From Psococerastis gibbosa (Eukaryota > Arthropoda > Insecta > Psocodea > Psocidae): a stretch of DNA of 64,000 nt. Position numbers and translations under genes: made by a program. Every line of letters begins with the position of its first letter. Position 1 is the first letter of the stretch. Below are positions 19,991 to 48,130 of this stretch, one piece after another. The notes below the pieces were generated by a model, which was not told the origin of the DNA, did not search any database, and worked only from the letters and a program-made list of their open reading frames with translations. The DNA is taken from positions 15,984,151 through 16,048,150 of the forward strand of contig OZ020492.1 of NCBI GenBank assembly GCA_963971405.1, in the 5' to 3' direction.

Positions 19991-20154
19991 CTCTGGTCTG
20001 TTATATCCTGGTACCTGTCAATCTCACATTGTAAATGCATTGGCTATATTGTGGGTTTTTGTGCAAAGAGCAGAGTATCGCAAATGCATTTTATGATTAA
20101 AGTTTAAATAAACGCACCTACGCAAAACATAGCTGGGGGTGCTTTAAATATATA

Positions 20155-22041
20155 AAACGTAGGCCTACTAAAAAAGAGCACAGTTTGATACACAGTAATA
20201 TAGTAATTAAACAGAGCAAAGATATAAGATCGAAAATAATATGTTATTAAATATATAATTTTATAATTTTTGTTTTCAAGCCATGTTTAAGCATTAAGAA
20301 AATAAAAGGGCTTTTAGACACATATAAATAAAATATTTTGCGGAATACTTTAGTACAATCATTTGGTAGTTTTACCTGGAAAGTATTCCGGGAGTTTTGA
20401 AAATTGGCGATTTTATAGATTTCGATGTGCTCTTTACGAATTTCAACTTTGCCCCCTAGTATCTTTGCCGCTTGAGCCGCCATCTTGGAAAAATGGCGTC
20501 TAAAAAGAGTTTTTTGACAATATCTCCTTTTCGACTCATTTTACGATAAAAATACCTATGCAACAAATTAAACTGGAGAAAATTTCCTATAATTTTTGTA
20601 CAAATCTTTTTTTTGGAAAATCAATAGTTTTAGCGTACGAGCGCCGCAAAGTCTACTCCAACATTCGTTCCGGCCAAAAACTCGTTTCCACATCACCATG
20701 AGGTAGAGTGAGTAGAACGTTTTTTGACGTGACAACGTCTAATAAATAGATGACCGCTGGCTGGAATACTGGGTGCATGTACGAAAAAGTGTTACTCCGA
20801 TGGGTGACACTCATCCGTGATGTTCATCCGTTACGCGGGCTTAAAGCAACTTTTCAGGCAGATGTAGAAGGTTTATCGCAATTTAAATTATACCGATGTC
20901 TTCGTCTTTTCTTCCTCTTTCAGGCCATGCTATATTTGTTGTGATAGGGCAAGCGGTTCGACTTTGGGGGGTGGAAACGTGAGGAGGTGCACCCAAATTT
21001 GACGATTTTAATCGAAAATAGGCTTTTGTCTGCAGCGTTTTTGGGGGTGTTAATATCAATTTGAAAACTTAAAACTACTTTAGTCCTTTTTCACTATTCT
21101 TATTCTTTCTAGACATATATTCAGTTTTACTATCCGTCTCTTAGTTCAGGTTCAGTGAGTGTATAACCCATCCGTGTTTCGGCGGAAAACAGGTTGAAGG
21201 GGTACTTTTCCAATTACATGCATAGAGTAAAAATATTCTACAGCCTGCAATTTTCAACAGAAATGAATTTTCAATGTCTCATTACAAGCAGTATGAAATA
21301 AGGTTTCAAACGAGTATAAAAGCATAGTTTCAAGGTCACCCCTTCACCCCTTTAACACGAGTGGAACCTGCGAAACGGATGAACATCACGGATGAGTGTC
21401 ACCCATCGGGGTAACACTTTTTCGTACATGCACCCGGTATTCCCGCCAGTGGTCATCGATTTATTAGACGTTGTCACGTCAAAAAACGTTCTACTCACTC
21501 TACCTCATGGTGATGTGGAAACGAGTTTTTGGCCGGAACGAATGTTGGAGTAGACTTTGCGGCGCTCGTATGCTAAAACTATTGATTTTCCAAAAGAAAG
21601 ATTTGTACAAAAATTATAGGAAATTTTCTCCAGTTTAATTTGTTGTATAGGTATTTTTATCGTAAAATGAGTCGAAAAGGAGATATTGTCAAAAAACTCT
21701 TTTTAGACGCCATTTTTCCAAGATGGCGGCTCAAGCGGCAAAGATACTAGGGGGCAAAGTTGAAATTCGTAAAGAGCACATCAAAATCTATAAAATCGCC
21801 AATTTTCAAAACACCCGGAATACTTTCCAGGTAAAACTACCAAATGATTGTACTATAAAGTATTCCGCAAAATATTTTATTTATATGTGTCTAAAAGCCC
21901 TTTTATTTTCTTAAGGCTTGAAAACAAATTATAAAATTTATATCTTTAATAACGTATTATTTTCGATCTTATATCTTTGCTCTGTATAATTACTATATTA
22001 CTGTGTATCAAACTGTGCTCTTTTTTAGTAGGCCTACGTTT
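20155..22041. repeat. 1.9-kb inverted repeat (foldback), ~680-bp arms
   Basis: Left arm 20155-20840 and right arm 21364-22041 are near-perfect inverse copies. Both include GTAGGCCTACTAAAAAAGAG at the outer end, GCCGCCATCTTGGAAAAATG, GAGCGCCGCAAAGTCTACTC and GTGTCACCCATCG. The ~520-bp loop is single copy. Each arm contains an open frame starting at ATGGCGGCTCAAGCGGC (minus at 20483, plus at 21723), but see the rejected list. This could be a foldback transposon or an inverted duplication of an older element. Confidence 0.8.
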
Positions 22042-22044
22042 TTG

Positions 22045-22190
22045 GCGGCTCGAGCGGCAAAGATACGAGGGGGCAAAGTTGAAATTCATAAAGAGCACAT
22101 CGAAATCTATAAAATCACCAATTTTCAAAACTCCCGGAAAACTTTCCAGGTAACCTCATTTTTTAGCACCAAATGACTGTACTACTTACT
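22045..22190 (+). repeat. Third partial copy of the foldback arm
   Basis: GGCGGCTCGAGCGGCAAAG to CTTTCCAGGTAACC repeats arm positions 21725-21860 in direct orientation, with about ten differences. It lies immediately outside the right arm, suggesting tandem growth at the border. Confidence 0.65.
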
Positions 22191-22503: not shown

Positions 22504-22587
22504 ACCATATGGGGCAACAATACGATATGACAATAATGACATCATTGTCTGACTGTTACTCGATATTAGTTTCAGATCCTGTGCACC

Positions 22588-24924
22588 ATGGCTGACTCTC
22601 CGCCCAAGATGAAAGATGAACCACCCTCCATGGACTTAATGACCCAGGAGACGGAAGAGGAGATGGTTGTGGCAGAGGGGATGCCGGAGGAGACAGTTGA
22701 GGAGACGTCTGAGGAGCCGGCAAGTAGACCTGTGCAAGTTCCACCGCCCATTTTGTCGCTGGATGACTTTTTCTCTGATACATTTGAATCGTCATCCTAT
22801 GCCATTTTCGGCAGCTCACAGCAGCCGTCAGCTTCCGCTTACGATTGTATAAGACCATTCAGTCGTTATGCTCCAATGCTACCTCATCCAGAAGAGGAAA
22901 GGGTTGTCGCTGAGGAGATACCGATGGAGTCAGCTGAGGACACGCTTGTGAAGGCGGCTGAGGAGAATGCACCGAGACCGGTACGAATTCCTACTCCCAT
23001 TTTGTCACTGGATGACATGTTCTCGACGATTTATCAATCGTCATCCGCTTCCTCGCTCGACAGCTCACAGCCGCAGTCAGGTAGGCCCAAAGCTTCTTCT
23101 CATACTACTGCCTACGTTTGGGCAAGACCATTCAGTCCTACTAATGCAATGTTACCTCATCCAGAGGAGGAGATGGTTGTGGCACAGATGATACCGGATG
23201 AGCCAGCTGAGGAGACGCTTGTGAAGACAGCTGAGGAGAATGCACCGAGACCGGTACGAATTCCTACTCCCATTTTGTCACTGGATGACATGTTCTCGAC
23301 GATTTATCAATCGTCATCCACTTCCTCGCTCGCCAGCTCACAGCAGCTGTCAGGTAGGCCCGAAGCTTCTTCTCATACTACTGCCTACGTTTGGGCAAGA
23401 CCATTCAGTCCTACTAATGCAATGTTACCTCATCCAGAGGAGGAGATGGTTGTGGCACAGATGATACCGGATGAGCCAGCTGAGGAGACGCTTGTGAAGA
23501 CGGCTGAGGAAACGGTAACGAGACCGGTACGAGTTTCACTTCCCATTTTGTCGCTGGACGACATTCACTGTGAGACATATCGTTCGTCGTCGCATTCCTC
23601 CCTCGACAGCTTACAGCAGCCGTCAGCTAGGCCCGACGCTGCGTCTCATACTTCTTCCTACAATTGGACAAGACCGTTCATTCCTTCCGTTGCAATGTCA
23701 CCTCGTTCAGAGGAGGAGATGGTTGTGGCAGAGAAGATGCCGGAGGAGTCAGCTGATGAGACGCTTGAGGAGATGGCAATTTCACCAGCACGAGTTCCAA
23801 CTCTCATATTGTCAATGGATGACATATTCTCACAGATGACTCGTTCGCCAACCTCTTCCTCTCTTGCCAGCTCACAGCATCTGTCATCTAGGTCCGAAGC
23901 TTCGGCTTATGCTTCTGCCTACGATAGTGTAAGATCGTCCAGTCGTCCCTTGGCAATACTACCTCGTCCAGAAGAAGAAGAGATGGTTGTTGCTGAGGAG
24001 ATGCCGGAAGAGTCCGCAGAGGAGGCACTTATGGAGACGATTCTGGAGATGGCTGAAGAGACGGAAACTACACCGGTACGAGTTGGTACTCCCATCTTGA
24101 CGATGGATGACATGTTCTCTCAGATATCTCATACGCCATCCACTTCCTCCCTTGTCAGCGTACAGCAGCCGTCAGCTAGGTCCGATGCTTCGTCTTATAC
24201 TTCTGCCTACGATTATGTAAGACCATTTAGTCGGCCCCTTCCAATGCTCCCTCGTCCATGGAGTCCCAGGTTTCCTCCTCACCCTCCGTCGGACTCACCA
24301 AGAGATTCCGTCGTCCCGCCTTGTCCTTTCCTGACTCCTTCTGAAGACGAGCTACCCACGCCGGCTCCGATTGTAGTGAGAGCTTCAGGTATAGTTGAGA
24401 TTCAAATCTTCCCGGGTTGTACGCCTCCTAACCCGATCGTGGTTTGTCCATCGCCCATGACCGTGCCAAAAGCTCCTGTCTCGAAACGGCCACGTTTAGC
24501 GTATCCGGTTCGACGTCCAGCACGTCCTCCACGTCCATCTTCGTCGTCACTTATTCCATCGGCGCTGAACCGGTCCAGTCTAGATGACGAGCACAGTGCA
24601 CAAGTTCGTCCACGTGGTCTAAAGTTCTCGTCACTTATTCAGTCAGCGCTGGATCGGTATAGTCCAGCTGCCGACTGGAAGCCAAAGCAGCGTCCACCTT
24701 CTCCAAGCTCATCTTCGTCGTCACATGTTCTATCGGCACGGGACCTGTACGATCAACCTGTTGACCCCAGTGCACTACAAGAACAATCAGAAGCTGTTAT
24801 GTGGCCCATACCCTGTAACATCGAACTATTGGCTAGTGCGCCGATTCCGATTCCACCTCCACCCCCAAAGAGAGCCACAAGTGTGTGTCGTAATCGTCAT
24901 AGGAGGATTATCCAGATGGCTGGG
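22588..24924 (+). CDS. Exon 1 of the repeat-protein gene (779 codons)
   Basis: A single open frame of 2.3 kb in a region where other frames rarely exceed 100 codons is strong evidence of coding. The frame would run on to a stop at 24946-24948. However, GCTGGG|GTAAGA at 24924/24925 is a good donor and exon 2 begins in the same phase, so I end the exon there. If the donor is not used, a 786-residue protein ending HYYLA results. GC content is visibly higher than in the flanks. Confidence 0.85.
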
Positions 24925-27900
24925 GTAAGACATTACTATCTTGCATAAATGTGTTGCAAATTTTAGGAAAGAATCACATCCCACTAGTCGTTTTTTGTAC
25001 AAAATCAAATTTTTCATAAACCATAGAGCTTATAAATGAGATGCCATATATGAAATGAAACTCTCCTTTAATACGCATATAGGAATGGAATAACTAATTT
25101 ACCATGTGGGCGGTATTAACACCGTTTTGCTACATTTCTCGAAAGATATGATTATTGTGATTTGTGAACCTACATACAGCATTTCATCAAAATCCACTGA
25201 TTAGTTTGCCCACAAATCGATGAACAGGCGGACAGATATTTCGAAGAAAAAAAAAACTTTTTCGGGTTCCTGTGGCCTCAAAACGTGTAAATCCGTTGAA
25301 ATCTTGGAATTTATTTTTATTGCCGGCTTTATCAGTCTATATGCTTTACATTGTATTGCAAACAAATAGACCTTCTGTTATCATTATTATATTTTATATA
25401 TATTAATTATAATTTTACATTCGATTATCATTGGTATAGAGGCAGAGCTTCTATTAAGACTACCTGACTACCGGAAGGTATGACCTTCGTGGCACCCCCT
25501 TTCAATACTGTTTACGGGATTCTGGAACCTTTTCTTATAAAACCAACTGTGTGTTTTATGAGATTTCTCCCTGTTTTATCGAAGCTTAGACACTTACATG
25601 TTACCGCTACAAAGGCGCTCCTTTTTATTCAAAAGGAATTTGGGCCAATTTATGGCACCATTGAGGCGTGCATTATTATGAGATTTCATCCTGTTTTAGC
25701 GAAGCTTCGACGCTGCTACTTGTTACCGTTGCAAAGCGGTTCCTTTTTATTCAAAAGAAATTCGGGTCAATTTAGGGTGTTGTTGTTTCGTGCAAAATAG
25801 TGGATTCATACAACAGTAACAGTTCTTCTTTATTGCGTGTTCATTTTATTGTGGTAATGGCGCCGACTAAGAAACAACCCGTAAGAAGCGACCCCGATTT
25901 GTTTAATTGCAGCAGCAGTGTGCAAGCCTCGCTAAACAAATGAGAGGGCGTGTAAAGCAGGTGGTCCTGGGCCTTTCTAGTTGAGTGTAAAAGAGGGCTT
26001 TATAGCCTTAAATCCGCTATGTTGGCTTAGTAATAGAACAAAAAATCAAAATTTATTTAAACAAACGAGAAATGATCATTAACGGTGTGAAGTCCATTTT
26101 ACCATATTTGAAATGCACCACTTCTCTTACGCCCGCGGCTCAAAAGACGAATATCAATTCCGGAATTTCCAGCTTTCTCCAGCGCATTAGATATGCAAGT
26201 TACAGATTTAACGGAATTTATCTTTTTCAATCGCTCTACGGCAAGTAGGGCATTTGGCCGTCAACTTAAAGACAGTAAGGCGCTATGCAATGTTCATCAC
26301 CTAATGAAATTCCTACGGGCACAAGTACAAACTTCTGACCAGTGGTAGACACAGAGGCCACGGGGTCATGACCCCCTCCCCCTAAATTTAAAAAGGGCCG
26401 CTAAATGGCAAATTAATTATAAAAAGAAATCATGAAATATTAAAAGTGTTACTGTAATACTTTTATAAATGGTTCTGTATGTACCGACCTCAATTGTTGA
26501 GAAAAACCAAATCAGCTACTTAAATCAAATACCTTTTCGTTTTTATTCTAAGTGTATACCTGAGGCGGCATTTTGAGGGATGACCGCCCAAAATAAATAG
26601 CTGGGTCCACCACTTTTGACCTAGATAGCGACATAGCCAAACCTTTTAAAGCTAGTTTCAGCTGAAGTCAGTTCTTCTGGCGGACACTGTGGACACTCCA
26701 CCAATGCAGTAAAACAGACCTCCGAATTAACAAGCATTGCCCAGTTTGCAATGGAAAGGCATAAATTATGGGTTTGAGCCAGAAAATATCAGATTTTTTG
26801 GATTCTCTTTCATAAATATACCTGTAGTGCCCAGAGGAGGTTTCACTGTATTTTATACTATTTACAGTATATATAGTACGGTGCAGCAACAAGAATTGCT
26901 AACGCAATAATGAGTTTTGTAATAATTACAAAGGAACGGCCACGGCCTATCATCCCGGATTCTACTGATTCACCAAATAAAGAGTTTGTTTCGAGAGTCG
27001 TGGGTTCTCTACAGGTTGTTCTAACAGATGTGGTCTTTTTTTGCAGCCTGGAGAAGTGCAATACATACCACCGGAACTTTTGAACTTCCAGTATCAGATT
27101 GGAGTAACTCAGACAATTATTTTGGCATTGAGCTTCGACGAAGCATCGCGGCCGTTCTTGGAGGAAGCAATTCAAAAAATGCGTGGCTTATTTATAATTT
27201 GGAGGGACGTTTTCATGAAGGTCGTCACTGCCCTTTATGAAACTTTCGAGAAGGTTCTCGATGGTAGAAAAGGGCGCAAGCGTAGAATTCGAACGGCCAC
27301 AAAAGAAATGGACCGGCTGCGGGCTCGGGTATGTACTTTATATCAAAAATATGCCAAGCCATGTGTCAGTGAACTAAAAAAAGGAATCCCACAGTGAGTC
27401 CACTCAGCAGTTTTCCCCTGGACCAGGGGTATCCAACTTATATTAAAAGCGAGCCAGAAAGACATTTTTCTGTTAAGTCGCACGTTACTTATACCACCGT
27501 TAAGCCTAGAAGTCAGGACATATGTAGAGTAGTAGTACAGACTCCGACTTTTACTCGAAAGGTTGTTGTTTCAAGTCCCACATTTGTTATATCTTCTGGC
27601 CATGCTTCGGAGGGCATGTCAAGCAGGCAGACCCGGGTTTTCCTAGTTGAGTGCAACTCCAACAAAACATACCAGCTAGCATTCAGCTTCGAGGGCAAAT
27701 TTATCTTTCTTCTTAAATCTACTTACTGATAATATTGTTGGACGCCAAAATGGATTGCGAGGCCTGAGGCGAAAAGTTGGTGTGAACCCCAAGTTATAAG
27801 TCGGGCGAAATAAAAAGGAATTGGGGCGAGTGGTCTCATTGCACAAACATAAAAAATGGCCCGAAAAGAAAATTTCTTTCGGGTCAACCTGACCCGTTCT

Positions 27901-28795
27901 ATCAACTTAAGGGTTAATTCCAGTTGCATTGCATTTACTTCAAGCACCTGTGTCACGATTTGAATATTTTCTGCATCATACTCTCTCCTGTCAACTTGTT
28001 GGGCACTGACCTAGACATGTTAAGTGTTTTTAGTTTAGTTATAATTGTATTGTATTACTGTATCCAATATAATTCATTCATTCATTCATTCATAGCAATA
28101 GGTTAAACCATTTTGGGGGCATGCAGTCGATTGTAGGACTGCCCATAACATGCCATAAAACGAAAAAACACCCTCAACATTGTGATGCAAAGTACGAATA
28201 TGTAGCCGCCATTAACGCAATTTGTCCGCTATTTTGGAAGGCTTCCTAGCCAAACGGCCGGTGTTAGTGGCGACTGTATATCAGAATGTAGAGGAACAAT
28301 TTTTCTAGTTTATGCCATGTAATTGATAGCTATTAATGATTTAGATCGGTGCATAAAAGGATAGTGTGTGCGATTGTTTGCAGTATAAACTACCAGGGAT
28401 TTTGTAGATGCGGGAACATCAACACTGAGATGCACATTTTTTTGTTCCAGGGAGAAATACCGGATGAACGTTTCGTTCATCGTGAAGAAATGCAGCAGGA
28501 TTTGCAATATTTGACTAGTCAACTGGAACGATATGTAATGGCCTCGGCCGATGAGATGGCTGAACTGCATCTGTATCGTGTGTTCCCGGGTTTCGTGGCG
28601 GTTCAAAACATGAATGCGACAAGGGATTACTTCAGAGCCCTCATCCAAGAAATGGAGATGAGCCGAGAGGACACTTTTGGTCCGATTGACGAGGAAGAAG
28701 AAGAGGACGATGAGGAGGAAACTGATGAAGAAGAAGAGGACGATGAGAAAGAAACCGATGAAAAACCTAATGAGGAAGAGGGAGACGACGATTGA
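22588..28795 (+). CDS. Unknown three-exon gene: six-repeat acidic/Ser-rich protein with Glu/Asp tail
   Basis: Exons 22588-24924, 27047-27328 and 28451-28795 join through two phase-0 introns (GTAAGA...TTTGCAG and GTATGT...TTCCAG) into a predicted 987-residue protein. The start sits in a strong context (CACCATGG). Residues 23-556 hold six repeats with a PILSLDD-type core. Residues 557-779 are Pro/Ser-rich with a basic stretch (KRPRLAYPVRRPARPPR, ~633-649) and three SSLIxSALxR-like copies. Exon 2 (780-873) is mostly helical with GRKGRKRRIR near its end. Exon 3 (874-987) is helical, then nearly all Glu/Asp from ~953. There is no signal peptide or clear membrane span. I recognise no family. The basic clusters and acidic tail would suit a nuclear protein, which is inference. 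No AATAAA was found within 300 bp of the stop. Confidence 0.82.
22654..24257 (+). repeat. Six in-frame coding repeats, units of 237-291 bp
   Basis: Unit starts are 22654, 22891, 23164, 23437, 23710 and 23971; units 2, 3 and 4 are exactly 273 bp. Each reads E-E-E-x-VVA, then PxESAEETL-like, then R-P-V-R-[IV], then P-I-L-[ST]-[LM]-D-D-[FMI]-[FH], a Ser-rich stretch, SAY-like and R-P-F-S, ending P-M/I-L-P-[HR]-P. Long tracts of units 2-4 are nearly identical in DNA, while units 1, 5 and 6 have diverged. This points to recent unequal exchange or conversion in the middle of the array. Confidence 0.88.
25940..26055 (+). mobile_element. SINE body, copy 2 (3' part)
   Basis: GTAAAGCAGGTGGTCCTGGG, CTAGTTGAGTGTAAAAGAGG and CTATGTTGGCTTAGTAATAG match the body of the SINE at 4668 and 62205. 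The tRNA-like head is absent, as in typical 5' truncation. Confidence 0.6.
26340..26612. mobile_element. hAT-like MITE in intron 1
   Basis: CAGTGGTAGACACAG on the left and GCTGGGTCCACCA on the right are imperfect inverse ends. CTTCTGAC and CTTTTGAC flank, seven of eight matching. The terminal CTG on the right appears lost. Confidence 0.5.
27047..27328 (+). CDS. Exon 2 of the repeat-protein gene (94 codons)
   Basis: The acceptor is CTTTTTTTGCAG|CCTGG and the donor is GCTCGG|GTATGT, both canonical and both in phase 0. The encoded segment begins PGEVQYIPPELLNFQYQIGV. It includes amphipathic stretches (FLEEAIQKMRGLFIIWRDVF) and the basic run GRKGRKRRIR before KEMDRLRAR. It has no match that I recognise. 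The frame would hit a stop at 27395-27397 if unspliced. Confidence 0.78.
27518..27675 (+). mobile_element. tRNA-derived SINE, copy 3, in intron 2
   Basis: GTTTCAAGTCCCACATTTG (B-box-like), then TCTGGCCATGCTTCGGAGGG, CAAGCAGGCAGACCCGGG and CTAGTTGAGTGCAACTCC. It lies between exons 2 and 3, so the open frame running through it is not coding. Confidence 0.65.
28451..28795 (+). CDS. Exon 3 of the repeat-protein gene (114 codons and stop)
   Basis: The acceptor TTTTTTTGTTCCAG|GGAG is followed in phase 0 by GEIPDERFVHREEMQQDLQY. A helical segment (LTSQLERYVMASADEMAELH) comes next, then RDYFRALIQEMEMSRED. Glu/Asp runs follow to a TGA at 28793-28795. The acidic tail of about 35 residues is encoded by GAG/GAA/GAT repeats, so its length may vary between individuals. 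Confidence 0.78.
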   Translation, partial: GEIPDERFVHREEMQQDLQYLTSQLERYVMASADEMAELHLYRVFPGFVAVQNMNATRDYFRALIQEMEMSREDTFGPIDEEEEEDDEEETDEEEEDDEKETDEKPNEEEGDDD

Positions 28796-28924
28796 AGGAA
28801 CAGTTTTTAAATGTTGGAGGACTTCTTCAGAACATTTTTCAATACCCTTTTCTAGGGGCAATGTATTATGGCCTTTCCCACCATCGTTTGAATAGTCTCG
28901 GTTAGGAATCTTGCATAGCACAGG

Positions 28925-29011
28925 CCCAGTGCCGGGTTCGGCCTTGTGGTGGCTCGGGCAGAAAGGCTTGTAATTTTGTATTAGGCTGCTTTTTGTGGGG
29001 GCCCGGCACTG
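28925..29011. mobile_element. Very short hAT-type MITE
   Basis: CAGTGCCGGGTTCGGCC and GGGGGCCCGGCACTG are inverse ends only ~85 bp apart. Flanking AGCACAGG and AGCACAGC differ at one base. It lies in the 3' region of the repeat-protein gene. Confidence 0.6.
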
Positions 29012-29089
29012 AGCACAGCTACGCATTGGTATTGGATGTGCCGTCCAGTATTCCTTAAAGTTCTTTTCAAGCGATGGTGGACCTATTGT

Positions 29090-32000
29090 TTATGCTCTAC
29101 TAGTTTACTCCACGCCGCAAAATGCGAGCTATTTGAGTTCCTTTTTACATTTGAGTTCTGCATATATCAAAGGAGAAATTGGAGTACTTAAAATTTTTAG
29201 TGTTAACATTTGTAGTTGCGGTTCCTTGAATTTAATGTACGGTACATTATGATACAGGTACTTACGTTTTGTTCGGGACAACCGTTCAAAGACGTAAATG
29301 GTTCACAAGCAGCTAGTTGGCTGCTCAAAATATTTACCTAGAGGTCCTAACACCTGGCAGCAAAGGGTTGTGACCAATTTTTGGGTGCATCATTTTTTAA
29401 GTTGGCCTATGTGTTTCTTTAATTTTATTTAATTGCTAACACTTTAGTAGTTTACTCCATGCCGCGAAGTGCGAGCTATTGGAGTTCCATTTTTACATTT
29501 GAGTTCTGCATATTTCAATGGAGAGATTGGAGCAAATCTAAGACATTTAGTGTTGAAATTGTAGTTGCGGACTTACAATTTCCTTGAATTTCGTGTACAA
29601 TATGGGGGATATACTTACGTTTTGTTAGGTAGCCTACAACTATTCAAAGACGCAATGGTTCACAACCAGCTAGTTGACCGCTCAAAAAATTTACCTAAGA
29701 GTCTTAACACCTGACAGTCAAGGGTTGTGACCACTTTTTTTCGGTGCATAATTTTTTAAGTTGGCCTACTTGTTTCTTTAATTTTCTTTAATTGTTAACA
29801 CTTTACTAGTTTACTCCATGCCGCGAGGTGCGAGCTATTGGAGTTCCTTTTTTACATTTGAGTTCTGTATATTTCAATGGAGAGATTGGAGCAAATCTAA
29901 GACATTTAGTGTTGAAATTGTAGTTGCGGACTTACAATTTCCTTGAATTTCATGTACAATATGGGGGATATACTTACGTTTTGTTAGGTAGCCTACAACT
30001 ATTCAAAGACGCAATGGTTCACAACCAGCTAGTTGTGACCAATTTTTTTCAGTGCATAATGTTTTTAAGTTGGCCTATGGTATGTGTTTCTATAATTTCC
30101 TTTAATTGAAGATACTTTTGTAATTACCTACTTTTTATATTTGTGTTCTGCATATTTCAATGGCGAAAATGGAGAGCATTTAAAATATTTAAGTGTTAAA
30201 AATAATTGTAGTTGGGGACTTGCAATTTCCTTGAATTTCATATACAATATGGAGCATATACTTACGTTTTGTTAGGTAGCCTACAACTATTCAAAGACGC
30301 AATGGTTCACAACCAGCTAGTTGACCGCTCAAAATATTTACCTAAGAGTCTTAACACCTGACAGTCTAGGGTTGTGACCATTTTTTTTCAGTGCATAATG
30401 TTTTTAAGTTGGCCTATGGTATGTGTTTCAATAATTTCCTTTAATTAAAGATACTTTTGTAGTTACCTACTTTTTATATTTGTGTTCTGCATATTTCAAT
30501 GGTGAAAATGGAGAGCATTTAAAATATTTAAGTGTTAAAAATAATTGTAGTTGGGGACTTGCAATTTCCTTGAATTTCATATACAATATGGAGCATATAC
30601 TTACGTTTTGTTATGCAGCCTACAACTATTCAAAGACGCAATGGTTCACAACCAGCTAGTTGACCGCTCAAAAAATTTACCTAAGAGTCTTAACACCTGA
30701 CAGTCTAGGGTTGTGACCAATTTTTTTCAGTGCATAATGTTTTTAAGTTGGCCTATGGTATGTGTTTCTATAATTTCCTTTAATTGAAGATACTTTTGTA
30801 GTTACCTACTTTTTATATTTGCGTTCTGCATATTTCAATGGTGAAAATGGAGAGCATTTAAAATATTTAAGTGTTAAAAATAATTGTAGTTGGGGACTTG
30901 CAATTTCCTTGAATTTCATATACAATATGGAGCATATACTTACGTTTTGTTAGGTAGCCTACAACTATTCAAAGACGCAATGGTTCACAACCAGCTAGTT
31001 GACCGCTCAAAAAATTTACCTAAGAGTCTTAACACCTGACAGTCTAGGGTTGTGACCAATTTTTTTCAGTGCATAATGTTTTTAAGTTGGCCTATGGTAT
31101 GTGTTTCTATAATTTCCTTTAATTGAAGATACTTTTGTAGTTACCTACTTTTTATATTTGCGTTCTGCATATTTCAATGGTGAAAATGGAGAGCATTTAA
31201 AATATTTAAGTGTTAAAAATAATTGTAGTTGGGGACTTGCAATTTCCTTGAATTTCATATACAATATGGAGCATATACTTACGTTTTGTTAGGTAGCCTA
31301 CAACTATTCAAAGACGCAATGGTTCACAACCAGCTAGTTGACCGCTCAAAAAATTTACCTAAGAGTCTTAACACCTGACAGTCTAGGGTTGTGACCAATT
31401 TTTTTCAGTGCATAATGTTTTTAAGTTGGCCTATGGTATGTGTTTCTATAATTTCCTTTAATTGAAGATACTTTTGTAGTTACCTACTTTTTATATTTGC
31501 GTTCTGCATATTTCAATGGTGAAAATGGAGAGCATTTAAAATATTTAAGTGTTAAAAATAATTGTAGTTGGGGACTTGCAATTTCCTTGAATTTCATATA
31601 CAATATGGAGCATATACTTACGTTTTGTTAGGTAGCCTACAACTATTCAAAGACGCAATGGTTCACAACCAGCTAGTTGACCGCTCAAAAAATTTACCTA
31701 AGAGTCTTAACACCTGACAGTCTAGGGTTATGTGTTTCTATAATTTCCTTTAATTGAAGATACTTTTGTAGTTACCTACTTTTTATATTTGTGTTCTGCA
31801 TATTTCAATGGTGAAAATGGAGAGCATTTAAAATATTTAAGTGTTAAAAAAAATTGTAGTTGGGGACTTGCAATTTCCTTGAATTTCATATACAATATGG
31901 AGCATATACTTACGTTTTGTTAGGTAGCCAACAACTATTCAAAGACGCAATGGTTCACAACCAGCTAGTTGACCGCTCAAAAAATTTACCTAAGAGTCTT

Positions 32001-32150
32001 AACACCTGACAGTCTAGGGTTGTGACCAATTTTTTTAAGTGAATAATTTTTTTAAGTTGGCCTATGGTATGTGTTTCTATAATTTTCTTTAATTGAAGAT
32101 ACTTTTGTAGTTCCTTTTTATATTTTGTGTTGGGCATATTTCAATGGTGT
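29090..32150 (+). repeat. Satellite-like tandem array, ~339-bp monomer, about ten units
   Basis: The word GTTCTG(C/T)AT recurs at 29155, 29503, 29862, 30144, 30483, 30823, 31162, 31501, 31793 and ~32129. The five intervals from 30144 on are 339, 340, 339, 339 and 292 bp, with near-identical sequence (e.g. GTTCACAACCAGCTAGTTGA). The first three units are 348-359 bp, diverged, and carry an extra CTAGTTTACTCCATGCCGCG block. The array has no coding capacity. The order, with older units at the left and homogenised units in the middle, is typical of unequal exchange. Confidence 0.9.
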
Positions 32151-38139: not shown

Positions 38140-38301
38140 CTCCGATCCCCAAATGTGGTCACTACATGACGCGAGGCTGGTCTTCCCTTTGAATTCACAC
38201 TTTCTCGGACAGGGTACTGAGTTTGTGGGCACGACGAAACGGAGACCGCCTTCTTCTGCCTCCTTGTAAAAGCGTGATTTTCGAGCTATATTATTGCGCA
38301 C
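38140..38301 (-). CDS. C2H2 zinc-finger gene, internal exon (54 codons)
   Basis: On the minus strand the acceptor is CTTTTTCTGGCAG|GTGCG at 38302/38301 and the donor is GGATCGGAG|GTGAGT at 38140/38139, both near consensus. Exactly 162 bp in phase 0 encode VRNNIARKSRFYKEAEEGGL and, further on, CPRKCEFKGKTSLASCSDHI. The latter is a Cys/His-rich stretch that does not fit the standard finger spacing. The phase agrees with the exons on both sides. It is flanked by direct repeats. Confidence 0.7.
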
Positions 38302-39713: not shown

Positions 39714-41385
39714 TTTTATCTTTTTGGGGAAAAGAGATTAGGCAGTCATTGTGCATTCTTAATATAATAACAGACTTTTTTTTAATAATAACGTGTCAAT
39801 AGTAATAAATGTAAGTTTCCCGCAATAAAGTTTTATCCTACTTTGTTTCAATTTCAATTGGAATTAAATTATTAATAAAAAGTAATTATTTCAATATTCC
39901 CCCCTCAATTGAAACATTAGAACATTTTATGAAATACAAAAAAAAAAACTTAGAAACATCTCAATACATTACATGAAACAAAAATCAGAAATTAATATAA
40001 ATTCATTTCTTTAGTAAAATAACAGGATTTTGCTCTTGGCAACCCTTTCGTTAAGATATCGGCAATTTGCTCATTTCTGCGAATATACTTTAATTCTAAA
40101 TTCTCACACTGAAAAATATCATATAAAATTTTTAACTTTATGTCAAGTATTTCACTCTTTTTATTTTGGATGGATCATTTACTAGAGCTATACAAGCTTG
40201 ATTGTCTTCAAAAATATTTATCTTCAGATCCATTGTTATATCAAAGTCAACTAATAATTTTTCAATCCATAAGATCTCTACTACGCAAAAATTTTAATTT
40301 ATCAACTCTGCTTCTGCTGTAGATTACGCAACACATGACTGTATCTTACTTTTCCATGCAATCAAGTTATTATTTATCATAATGCAGTATCCACTCACGG
40401 ATTTTCTATCATTGAAATCTTGACCCCAGTCAGCGTCAGCAAATGCATCTACAAAGTATTATCATTATTATCAGTTCTATAATAAAATAAACCAAACTCT
40501 TTAGTTTTCTTCAAATATTTTAAAATTCTAGTTAAATATTTCCAAAACTATTCAGACGGTTTAAATAATGAAATTAATATTGTCTGGTCTAGTTACAAAC
40601 TAAGTACATCAAACAACCAATTAGTTCTTTTCATGGTTTATCAGTATTCTCAACAGTCTTTTCTTCAAAATGAAGATTAGTTTCATTAGACGTATCAGCA
40701 CCATAACAATTTTCAAATCTAAATTTCTTTAAGAGTTTTTCCACATAATTGGTTTGGTTTATTTTTAAATAACCATTTTCCTTATCATAATCGATATTCA
40801 AACCAAGAAATTTCTTAAGATTTCCTTTATCTTTCATTTTAAATCGAGTCATCAATAGATTTTTCACATCAACAATAGCTTTATCGTCAAGACTACATAA
40901 AATTATGTCATCTACAAATAGTAGTAAGTAAACAGAATTATTTTTATACAAACATAAATCATCATTACATTGCAAAAAGCCTTATCTTTTGACAAAGTCA
41001 TTAAATTCCATATTCCAGCATTTAGCTGCCTGTTTAAGTCCATATAGAGCTTTGTTAAGTTTAAGAACATGATTCGGTTTATATTCGTGCCCCCAGGAGA
41101 ATAAATATATAGGCCTAAGGAGTTGGCAATTTACCATTCAAGAAAGCTGAATTGACATCTAACACTTGAAAGTTGAACCCTTTCTGATTCCCTATTTCAA
41201 GAAAAAAAATCTTATTGTGGTCATATTTGCAACCGGAGTATAAATTTCGCTTCTATCAAAACTTTCTCTCTGTTCAAAACCTCTGCAAACAAGTCTAGCC
41301 TTGCATTTGTTTCACCGGTTTCATTATTCATTTTTGTGAACACCCATTTGGTACTCAAAATTTGATCTTAAACACTAGGGTTTTC

Positions 41386-42596
41386 AACAAAGTAAAAAAG
41401 TAAAGTAAGTAAAGTAAATGTATTTCAAAATTTTCCTTCGTAATACATTAATAAACATATGGGGCCCGTTAGGCTAGGCCCGTGATGGGCCCCTGAACAG
41501 TTTGCAATACAAATAATATTTAAATGCACTAGTTACACTATAATAATGTATGTTTAAATCATGTAAAAATCACAGAAAAAAATATTAATAAGAAGCAGAA
41601 AGATAAAATAATAATAATAATGGTAGGATTGTACAATATATGTCAGTAGATAGCTTAAATTAAATTAAATTAACAGCTTGAGCAAAAACTGAGGCTGTTA
41701 TTCGGCTAATTGGGTGAAAATAGGTTTTTTTATGGTGCGGTCGAAAAGTTTAATATTGTTTAGTTGTTTAATTGATTCTGTAAGACTGTTGTATGGGGAA
41801 ATGGATCTATATATGTGTGATGTTTGAAGTAGGGATGTTTTTGGGGCAAAATATTTTGAGATTGCGGCCCACTCCAAGTCTTGTGTTTAGTCCATGTTGT
41901 ATGTAGTCTGTCTGGCCGTCTAACGTCATGCTGCGTTTGTATCTGTATAGTAGTAGTTGTCTTGTGTAAAGTAGTGTCAATGGATGAACCTGGAAGTCAT
42001 TATATAGTTGGAGGGATGGGAAACGGCGTGGTCTGCGCATTGCGACCCGCAGGACACTTTTCAATGCAACCTCAAGAGGTTGTAGGTGAGTGCAGTAAGC
42101 TCCCCCCCACGCTAATAAGCCATATTCTGCTATTGACTGCACAATTGCATAGTACGTCTGTCTGAGGAAGTCCCGGTCAAGTATGTGCCTTAAACGTCGA
42201 AATTTGTATGTAGTCTTTCGTACCCGTGTCGATGTCAGTAGTATGTGCGTGTTCCATTTAAGGTGTTGGTCAATAGTCACTCCTAAGTATTTGTACGAGT
42301 CAGTCTTTGCTATTGTATGTTGGTTTATTGTTATCGTTAGGTTGTCAGGTTGTCCAGCTGAGTTGGGGCTGAATGTCATAAATTCGGTTTTAAGTACATT
42401 AAGAGTGAGTCTGTTTTCCTGTAGCCATTTTTGTACTTTTTTCAGTGCTAGGTTTGTCTTATTTTGCACATCATTCCATGTCTCTCCATTAATATGTAGG
42501 GCGGTGTCGTCAGCAAAGCCAATCAAACTACCGTCAATATCTAGTTTCAAAAGTTCATTAATGTAGATAAGGAACAAGAGTGGCCCACAATATCCC
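41386..42596 (-). mobile_element. 5'-truncated LINE inserted in the copia RT
   Basis: The minus-strand frame from 42596 to a stop at 41807 begins GPLLFLIYINELL, in the middle of RT. It has the catalytic FADDTAL box (about 42500-42520), KTEFMTFSP and YKYLGVTIDQHLKWNTHI, then the thumb and C-terminal part. This ~260-codon frame is uninterrupted. About 400 bp of 3' UTR ends in TTTAC-type repeats at 41390-41415. The upstream RT, endonuclease and ORF1 are absent. CR1/Jockey-like. It is younger than the copia it sits in, since copia sequence resumes on both sides. Confidence 0.85.
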
Positions 42597-43391
42597 ATGT
42601 GTTGTTTGTTTTTATAGAATTCAATTCTCGTTTTATAGCCTTTAACCACAAATTATTTTCTTCACAACATATAGCTTCATTGTAATTCATAGGTACGCCA
42701 TTCACAAACTCCTCTGCACATAGTGCCATATTTAATTCATAATATTTTAAATTCTCTGGAATTCTGATTGTTCTCTTAGGTCTACCACTTTCAATTACAT
42801 TTGTCTTACTTTCACACACAGTTTCGTTTTCAATAACGGCATTTGACGATTTCATGATCTGATTCTGATTTGTCATATTCAATGCTGATTTTAGGATCTT
42901 TAGATTTAAATACAAATTGATTTTCATTGAAAATTATATCTCGTGCCACAAATATCTTACTTGTTTTTAAATTAAGTAATCTGTATCCAACAGCTGCATA
43001 TCCTAACATTATACATACGAGTAGATCAGCTTTTGAGTCAAGTTTCTTTCTTAGTTCTTTAGGAATGTGAGTGTATGCCATTGAGCCAAATACACGTAAA
43101 TAACTTACATCTTGTTTTTCTCCATACCAGATTTCTGCTGGAGTTTTATTTTCTTCAAGAACTGAAGTTGATAACCTACGGTTCAATGTATACGCGGCAC
43201 ATTTTACAGCTTCATGCCAATATATTTTAGGAACTTCAGATTTTTCCAGCATGGTGCGAGCTTTCTCAACCAAAGTCCTATTCATACGCTCGCTTTTACC
43301 ATTTTCTTCTGGTGTGTATTTTACAGTAAAATCCTGAATAATTCCTTTTTATAGCAAATTTTTTTTTATGAAATTAGACTAGTACTCCTTG

Positions 43392-47113: not shown

Positions 47114-48130
47114 ATAAACAAAAAATAACAAAAACTTAGAGTTTTAGAAAAACCCGAATTAGTAAAACCCAAATAATCGTTAAGAAATCAACTTTGTCTA
47201 AGAAACCCACTTGTGTTAGTATAAAACCCTGAGCACTTTCGGCAAGAACTGCTATCTACAGAGGGAAGCCCACTAGCACAGTTACACCTTATCTGCGATT
47301 TGAGACTTGCTCAACTCAAGGAGAAGATGCAAATGTGACTAGGGAGAGGAAACCTTGGTTTATATAGGACTGGGAGCGGGGGGAGGAGGTGGTGGGAGGG
47401 GGTGTGGCTGGTTACCTGTTGCTAACCTACTTGCTAGATCTATTAGAGGGGATGATTGTGTGAATGTTATGTCGTTGTTAATTTTTCCCTATTGTATAAA
47501 GCTCTTTTGATTTCAACATTTTCAAACAAATTTGAAGTGTAACTTTTCTTTATTTTGTGTAGGGCTGTCCAATTGTGAGGATCGAATGTGTGATTTTCCG
47601 AGTTAAGGTGTTTCGCGAATGTGCTGTTGGCGTTGGTGTCTCCTATACCTGTTATATGTTCTCTGACCCTAGTTTTAAAGCTTCTGCCTGTTTGGCCTAT
47701 GTAAATAGCGTTACAATCGTTACAATTTAGACGATAAACTCCATTGCCTTTTTCCTTTTCTGGTTTGGTTTTGCAGTTCATGAGTTTATTGGCCAAATTG
47801 TTGCGGTTGTACAGGGCTGGTGTTTTGTCTGTTGTAGAAGAAATGAGGTTACTTATTTTTTCTGTGATTTTTTCTATGTATTATATCCTGAAATATGATT
47901 TATTGGTTTCCGGGTTTTCATTATTATAGTTGGTTTCATTCATAGGGATGTTAAGGAGTCGAAAAATCATACTATGGATGCAGTTCTTGCCGAAAGCGCT
48001 CAGGGTTTTATACTAACACAAGTGGGTTTCTTAGACAAAGTTAATTTCTTAACGATTATTAGGGTTTTACTAATTCGGGTTGTTATAACAAGTTTTTCGA
48101 AAACTCTAAGTTTTTGTTATATTTTGTTTA
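47114..48130 (-). mobile_element. Penelope-like element fossil (GIY-YIG part) between inverted repeats
   Basis: The minus strand 47796-47467 encodes a GIY-YIG endonuclease segment: GVYRLNCNDCNAIYIGQTGR, then R-x-R-EH and a downstream FAKHLNSENH. This is the C-terminal domain of Penelope-like retroelements. Nearly identical inverted repeats of ~140-150 bp flank it (47114-47252 and 47980-48130; both contain GTGGGTTTCTTAGACAAAGT or its inverse). Inverted pseudo-LTRs are known in this group. The RT is missing, so it is an incomplete fossil. Confidence 0.75.

Follow-up and report, generated by a model that had tools for sequence, protein, structure and literature searches.

Does the long, repeat-bearing open frame on the X chromosome of the barkfly Psococerastis gibbosa belong to a spliced protein-coding gene, and if so what kind of protein would it encode? 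The locus lies on the plus strand (X:16,006,738-16,012,945), at positions 22588 to 28795 of a 64,000-nucleotide stretch (assembly GCA_963971405.1, contig OZ020492.1, positions 15,984,151 to 16,048,150 of the forward strand), the whole of which is referred to here as the window. A preliminary description made from the sequence letters had proposed a 779-codon first exon followed by two short exons joined in phase 0 through canonical splice sites, giving 987 residues, and all of these coordinates were reproduced. On the evidence of the sequence the three-exon model is probably correct, and the locus is very probably a spliced protein-coding gene. The features of the model are as follows.

22588..24924, plus strand: exon 1, 779 codons encoding a short N-terminus, six tandem repeats and a Pro/Arg/Ser-rich segment
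22654..24258, plus strand: six-repeat array, each repeat with an acidic arm, an ILSLDDMF-type core, a Ser tract and an AY...RPFS tail
24259..24924, plus strand: Pro/Ser/Arg-rich segment, residues 558-779, net charge +9, with basic clusters KRPR, RRPAR and RNRHRR
24925..27046, plus strand: intron 1, GT-AG, with dispersed-repeat fragments at about 25944-26059 and 26335-26617
27047..27328, plus strand: exon 2, 94 codons, phase 0 at both ends, helix-like composition
27329..28450, plus strand: intron 2, GT-AG
28451..28795, plus strand: exon 3, 114 codons and a TGA stop, a helix-like segment followed by a Glu/Asp tail

Reading frame, splice signals and coding potential

The joined translation of the three exons is 987 residues followed by a stop, with phase 0 at both joins, and the start codon of exon 1 is in a good context (CACCATGG). 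The donor of intron 1 reads GGG/GTAAGA (24924/25) and its acceptor tttttttgcag/CC (27047), whilst intron 2 has the donor CGG/GTATGT (27328/29) and the acceptor tttttttgttccag/GG (28451). These signals are strong: when scored with a generic splice matrix, not trained on P. gibbosa, the two donors rank 23 and 33 among 3464 plus-strand GT sites of the window and the two acceptors 10 and 5 among 3349 plus-strand AG sites. With thresholds placed just under the observed splice scores, exon 2 is the sole plus-strand stop-free internal-exon candidate of 150-450 bases in the window, and the minus strand yields one (38140-38301); as these thresholds were derived from the observed sites, the scan serves as a rarity control and not as a blind prediction. 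The frame of exon 1, read into intron 1, stops at 24948 to give an open reading frame of 786 codons, compared with 263 residues for the next-longest ATG-to-stop frame in the window. The estimated probability that a run of 779 codons contains no stop is 6e-20 at the stop frequency of the window and 2e-15 at that of the exon 1 complementary strand.

Coding potential was assessed with a full codon score trained on 23 of 30 protein-kinase loci of the P. gibbosa genome (of the seven excluded, one almost duplicated another locus and the others had stops, frame problems or no kinase motif) and with a synonymous-only score, for which 15 kinase loci served as the training set because minus-strand loci had been read on the wrong strand. 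Of the six frames, the full score placed the proposed one first in exon 2 and also in exon 3 once the acidic tail was removed, and no open-frame window of equal length elsewhere reached the scores of exon 2 (0 of 276) or exon 3 (0 of 452), these windows being overlapping and non-independent. Exon 1 scored above random window segments of equal length, none of 2000 reaching its value. Codon scores back exons 2 and 3, and exon 1 only weakly. The six in-frame repeat copies are a stronger coding argument than the codon scores: in a simulation of neutral substitution (star phylogeny, repeat 3 as ancestor, substitutions only) the probability that all five other copies stayed open was approximately 5e-5.

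A 5' untranslated exon joining at 22576 was considered and is not favoured, as the acceptor there ranks merely 364 of 3349. A 259-codon open frame on the minus strand (28313-29089) lies antisense to exon 3, has no Pfam match and is probably a mirror of the acidic tail of that exon. Neither Rfam nor a tRNA scan gave any hit in the window.

The repeat array and the composition of the predicted protein

Six acidic, Ser-rich repeats had been noted in the N-terminal half, and these were confirmed by their residue boundaries (23-101, 102-192, 193-283, 284-374, 375-462 and 463-557) and by the array reported by Tandem Repeats Finder at 22851-24232 (period 273, 5.1 copies, 79% matches). The repeats are 79, 91, 91, 91, 88 and 95 codons long, all whole codons in one frame and with no stop, and two repeats may differ at as many as roughly one base in four. 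Constraint within the repeat is suggestively uneven. Pooled over 15 repeat pairs, the ratio of nonsynonymous to synonymous rates (dN/dS) was 0.37 for the acidic arm, 0.28 for the ILSLDDMF core and 0.54 for linker plus core, with values of 1.91 for the Ser tract and 1.16 for the tail. The ratio of the corresponding proportions (pN/pS) was 0.48 for arm plus core (bootstrap 0.27-0.83) and 1.37 for Ser tract plus tail (0.91-2.30), a contrast with a permutation p of 0.003 that was equalled by 0 of 94 circular shifts. The contrast omitted 10 of the 95 alignment columns, situated between arm and core, and did not include another column that contains only one additional residue, from repeat 5. The interval for the Ser tract (0.87-4.88) spans 1 and so does not demonstrate positive selection. 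The pattern is suggestive of a fixed ILSLDDMF motif and acidic arm borne on freely varying Ser linkers. In addition, the helical hydrophobic moment of the repeats exceeds that of column-shuffled repeats, with 4 of 500 shuffles reaching it.

The remainder of the protein had been described as a basic helical middle and a Glu/Asp tail. The tail was evident, with 28 of the 35 residues from 953 being Glu or Asp. The middle proved to be two parts that had been merged: residues 558-779 are Pro/Arg/Ser-rich and basic (net +9) but not helix-like, whilst the helix-like composition belongs to residues 780-873, encoded by exon 2, whose basic character is mild (net +5). Basic clusters are found at 633-646, 674, 698, 768 and 853-873. 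Composition suggests that the 780-950 segment would be helix-prone. The charge-hydropathy rule, applied to whole regions, places the repeats and residues 558-779 narrowly on the ordered side and residues 874-955 on the disordered side, and the disordered repeats of the preliminary description were a guess rather than a result.

Copy number, relatives and competing explanations

The genome was searched as 409,210,807 bases in 68 contigs; the genome paper counts 69 scaffolds, gives 17,010 protein-coding genes for the Ensembl annotation of the assembly, has PacBio and Hi-C as the only runs in its Table 1, and identifies as the X the 22.82 Mb chromosome (PMC12559846), to which the 22,821,630-base contig of the locus corresponds. 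Each coding segment has one significant place in its own genome, namely itself. The Pro-rich part matched 15 further places at expect values (E) of 0.095-0.85, 30-33% identical over 43-89 residues; a single long repeated open frame accounts for most of them, and the matches were taken as composition noise. The gene is single-copy and X-linked, and as no second copy was present on any contig there is none on the Y chromosome, provided that the Y is among the contigs searched.

Relatives were sought in the Pfam, PDB, NCBIfam and PHROG libraries and in non-insect sequence collections, the sole insect genome being that of P. gibbosa itself. As these collections contain no other insect genomes, the lack of matches does not show restriction to barklice. 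The earlier statement that no family could be recognised held throughout these libraries, in which there was no clear match to a known family or to a transposon protein. Nothing in Pfam or NCBIfam exceeded the curated cut-offs; weak matches were to XRCC4_CC, SKA2, RPA43_OB, Astro_capsid_p, TPR_TTI1_C and CDC45 in Pfam and to casA_cse1 in NCBIfam. With an E limit of 10 the whole protein drew four Pfam families, HMMER filters dropping most matches above 0.1. PDB gave a weak match to a tape-measure chain at E 0.014 and another to a designed bundle at E 1.3, and in PHROGs there were two, the best at E 0.063; further PDB and PHROG searches gave no match. Viral and prokaryotic collections produced 13, 37 and 60 pattern matches, none of which was confirmed by tblastn. 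A literature search found no papers on Psocodea orphan genes; of the papers searched, four name P. gibbosa, and judged by title and abstract these are the genome note and three cytogenetic studies.

Our tentative proposal, which we regard as possible rather than established, is of a functional single-copy X-linked gene for a fast-evolving, mostly extended, acidic modular protein that would act as a nuclear docking scaffold. Its N-terminal half would repeat one weakly structured module six times, each module having a Glu-rich arm that precedes ILSLDDMF as a putative short linear motif, with a freely changing Ser-rich linker as the spacer. Such an array could offer a single partner the same docking site six times over. 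Transport to the nucleus might depend on the basic Pro/Arg segment, the predicted helical part encoded by exons 2 and 3 might mediate self-association or binding of a second partner, and the Glu/Asp tail may contact basic partners, for instance histones, protamines or proteins of the ribosome. All of this presumes that the locus is transcribed and spliced as modelled.

A number of results weigh against this proposal. The codon score of exon 1 is 0.108 in its own frame compared with 0.17 and 0.14 in two antisense frames, and that of its post-repeat part is 0.03 compared with 0.29 antisense. The synonymous-only score singles out the proposed frame of no exon, with values of 0.031 and 0.024 for exons 2 and 3 and of 0.122 and 0.333 for one antisense frame. 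Since antisense frames outscore exon 1 and the synonymous-only score favours none of the proposed frames, the codon evidence reflects mainly amino-acid make-up. No polyadenylation hexamer (AATAAA, ATTAAA or seven variants) was found from the stop to 30444. The dN/dS of the whole repeat, pooled over the 15 pairs, is 0.84 and hence near neutral, and the pN/pS interval of the core alone is 0.24-1.21; moreover, segment boundaries were set after the alignment was viewed, and the repeat pairs share ancestry and are non-independent. With regard to structure, the repeats do not come out as disordered under the charge-hydropathy rule, and neither exon 2 (P = 0.21) nor exon 3 (P = 0.16) has a helical moment above that of shuffled sequence.

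The first alternative is that the locus is the orthologue of an ordinary insect gene with a nuclear, cytoskeletal or reproductive role, has diverged too fast to be recognised, and is hence no orphan at all. Most of the protein is of low complexity, its helical part may be past the reach of HMMER, and the range of libraries searched would suit such an explanation, as would the nature of the best C-terminal matches, to the helical or coiled-coil families XRCC4_CC (E 0.0094) and SKA2 (E 0.12). However, no match reached a Pfam or NCBIfam cut-off, and E values of 0.014 in PDB and 0.063 in PHROGs were the best obtained. We consider this explanation somewhat unlikely. The similarity to XRCC4_CC and SKA2 covers approximately 30 residues of exon 3 and falls under both Pfam cut-offs (16.5 bits against 27 and 12.7 against 30.1), and it was taken as what any helical stretch would probably yield.

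Exon 1 could instead be a separate gene of 786 codons ending at 24948, with exons 2 and 3 belonging to another transcript or arising by chance. Because its frame runs on into intron 1 before stopping, exon 1 alone does form a complete open reading frame, and it is consistent with this that the synonymous-only score shows no preference for the proposed frames in exons 2 and 3. The strengths of the donors and acceptors, the phase 0 at both joins, the full codon scores of exons 2 and 3 and the single plus-strand internal-exon candidate in 64 kb all argue otherwise, and we judge a separate exon 1 gene to be improbable.

Equally improbable is that the gene is decaying or arose only recently, with weak selection acting on it and little protein-level function for its open frame. 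The near-neutral dN/dS of the whole repeat, the lack of a polyadenylation signal close to the stop, the repeat fragments within intron 1, the single copy and the repeated sequence that ends approximately 330-435 bases upstream of the start codon would all suit such a gene. Against it are 987 codons with neither stop nor frameshift, repeat lengths that are all whole codons in one frame, and an arm and core that look conserved. More speculative still, fixed ILSLDDMF modules with diversifying Ser linkers, as expected of a protein in an evolutionary conflict, might mark a new X-linked single-copy family with no Y copy detected. The conflict could concern, for instance, how sex chromosomes are packaged or transmitted, in an insect whose relative Loensia was assembled with an X and lacks a Y; we regard this as very unlikely. 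A domesticated or resident mobile-element or viral protein is the least probable origin and was rejected: mobile-element sequence is frequent in the window, but the coding segments have no significant second copy in the genome, there is no reverse transcriptase or integrase match, viral-family matches are insignificant (Astro_capsid_p at E 0.41; Herpes_pp85 in Pfam at E 0.31, for one of the six repeats), and the viral and prokaryotic collections, the viral contigs among them, yielded no confirmed relative.

Returning to the proposed nuclear docking scaffold, several known systems offer comparison. The nucleolar phosphoproteins Nopp140 and treacle combine acidic Ser-rich tandem modules with basic Pro-rich stretches, and the barkfly protein resembles them in this arrangement, a comparison of how such proteins may work only. 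In contrast to them, its repeats are built around ILSLDDMF, a core of hydrophobic and acidic residues, and alternating Lys-rich blocks are absent. LisH, Treacle and SRP40_C, the Pfam domains of the Nopp140 and treacle type, were not among the families that the whole protein drew from Pfam with an E limit of 10, and a literature search for this comparison found no paper. The C-terminal Glu/Asp run recalls the acidic-tailed histone chaperones nucleoplasmin, NAP and SET; such tails occur in many proteins and are not diagnostic by themselves, and neither a nucleoplasmin nor a NAP family appeared in the same Pfam list. In being single-copy, without a recognised family, internally repeated and surrounded by mobile elements, the gene also resembles lineage-restricted repeat-bearing orphan genes of insects, a likeness that holds apart from lineage restriction, P. 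gibbosa being the sole insect genome compared. Orphan repeat proteins are common in insect genomes, and this would be one more such protein from an under-studied insect order, of a plausible and ordinary kind. If expressed, it would add one family to those of that order, and the repeats of one gene would hint at which part of the module is constrained; by itself the gene opens no long-standing question, and it would be special if it were restricted to barklice or had a sex-linked role.

Genomic surroundings, sex chromosomes and mitochondrion

The gene is flanked by repeated sequence on both sides, and the other features of the window are listed below.

20154-22042: element with inverted arms, 20154-20839 against 21367-22042, approximately 680 bases, 96% identical
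22043-22153: extra piece of the element arm
about 29013-29080: dispersed repeat downstream of the gene
29085-32085: tandem array with periods of about 359, 339 and 292
40634-43348, minus strand: RVT_2 and SH3_retrovirus fragments, with an RVT_1 open frame (41810-42652) between them
47470-47880, minus strand: open frame with a GIY-YIG domain

The element with inverted arms has many copies genome-wide, and sequence with copies elsewhere extends to 22259, approximately 330 bases upstream of the start codon. Within the tandem array the 339-base part has five copies with 98% matches, and the 44 matches listed for the array all fall at the same X site (40 of 56 candidates scored). There are 60 open frames of at least 90 codons outside the gene, and the Pfam scan covered 30 of these. 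No conserved host gene was found among the 30, whilst five gave element-domain matches: RVT_1 twice (once below the cut-off), RVT_2, SH3_retrovirus and GIY-YIG. The fragments at 40634-43348 are presumably Copia-type, and the GIY-YIG frame is one we take to be Penelope-like.

P. gibbosa was assembled with both X and Y chromosomes (PMC12559846), and the assembly of a male Loensia variegata (GCA_964261705.1), of the same family, lists nine chromosomes, with an X but no Y. Among the COX1 matches listed, 42 of 43 lie off the mitochondrial contig, and 26 of these 42 exceed the Pfam cut-off; they include a long COX1 copy in two frames on one contig. The mitochondrion of P. gibbosa is 17,084 bases long, and in its tRNA order trnM and trnC are out of their usual places. 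Approximately 3.2 kb separate trnV from trnM, an interval in which we expect the small rRNA gene to lie. The tRNA order fits the translocations described in Psococerastis albimaculata, in which the control region is given as 911 bases (PMC3632521). Even allowing for a small rRNA gene, the control region of P. gibbosa looks much longer than this.

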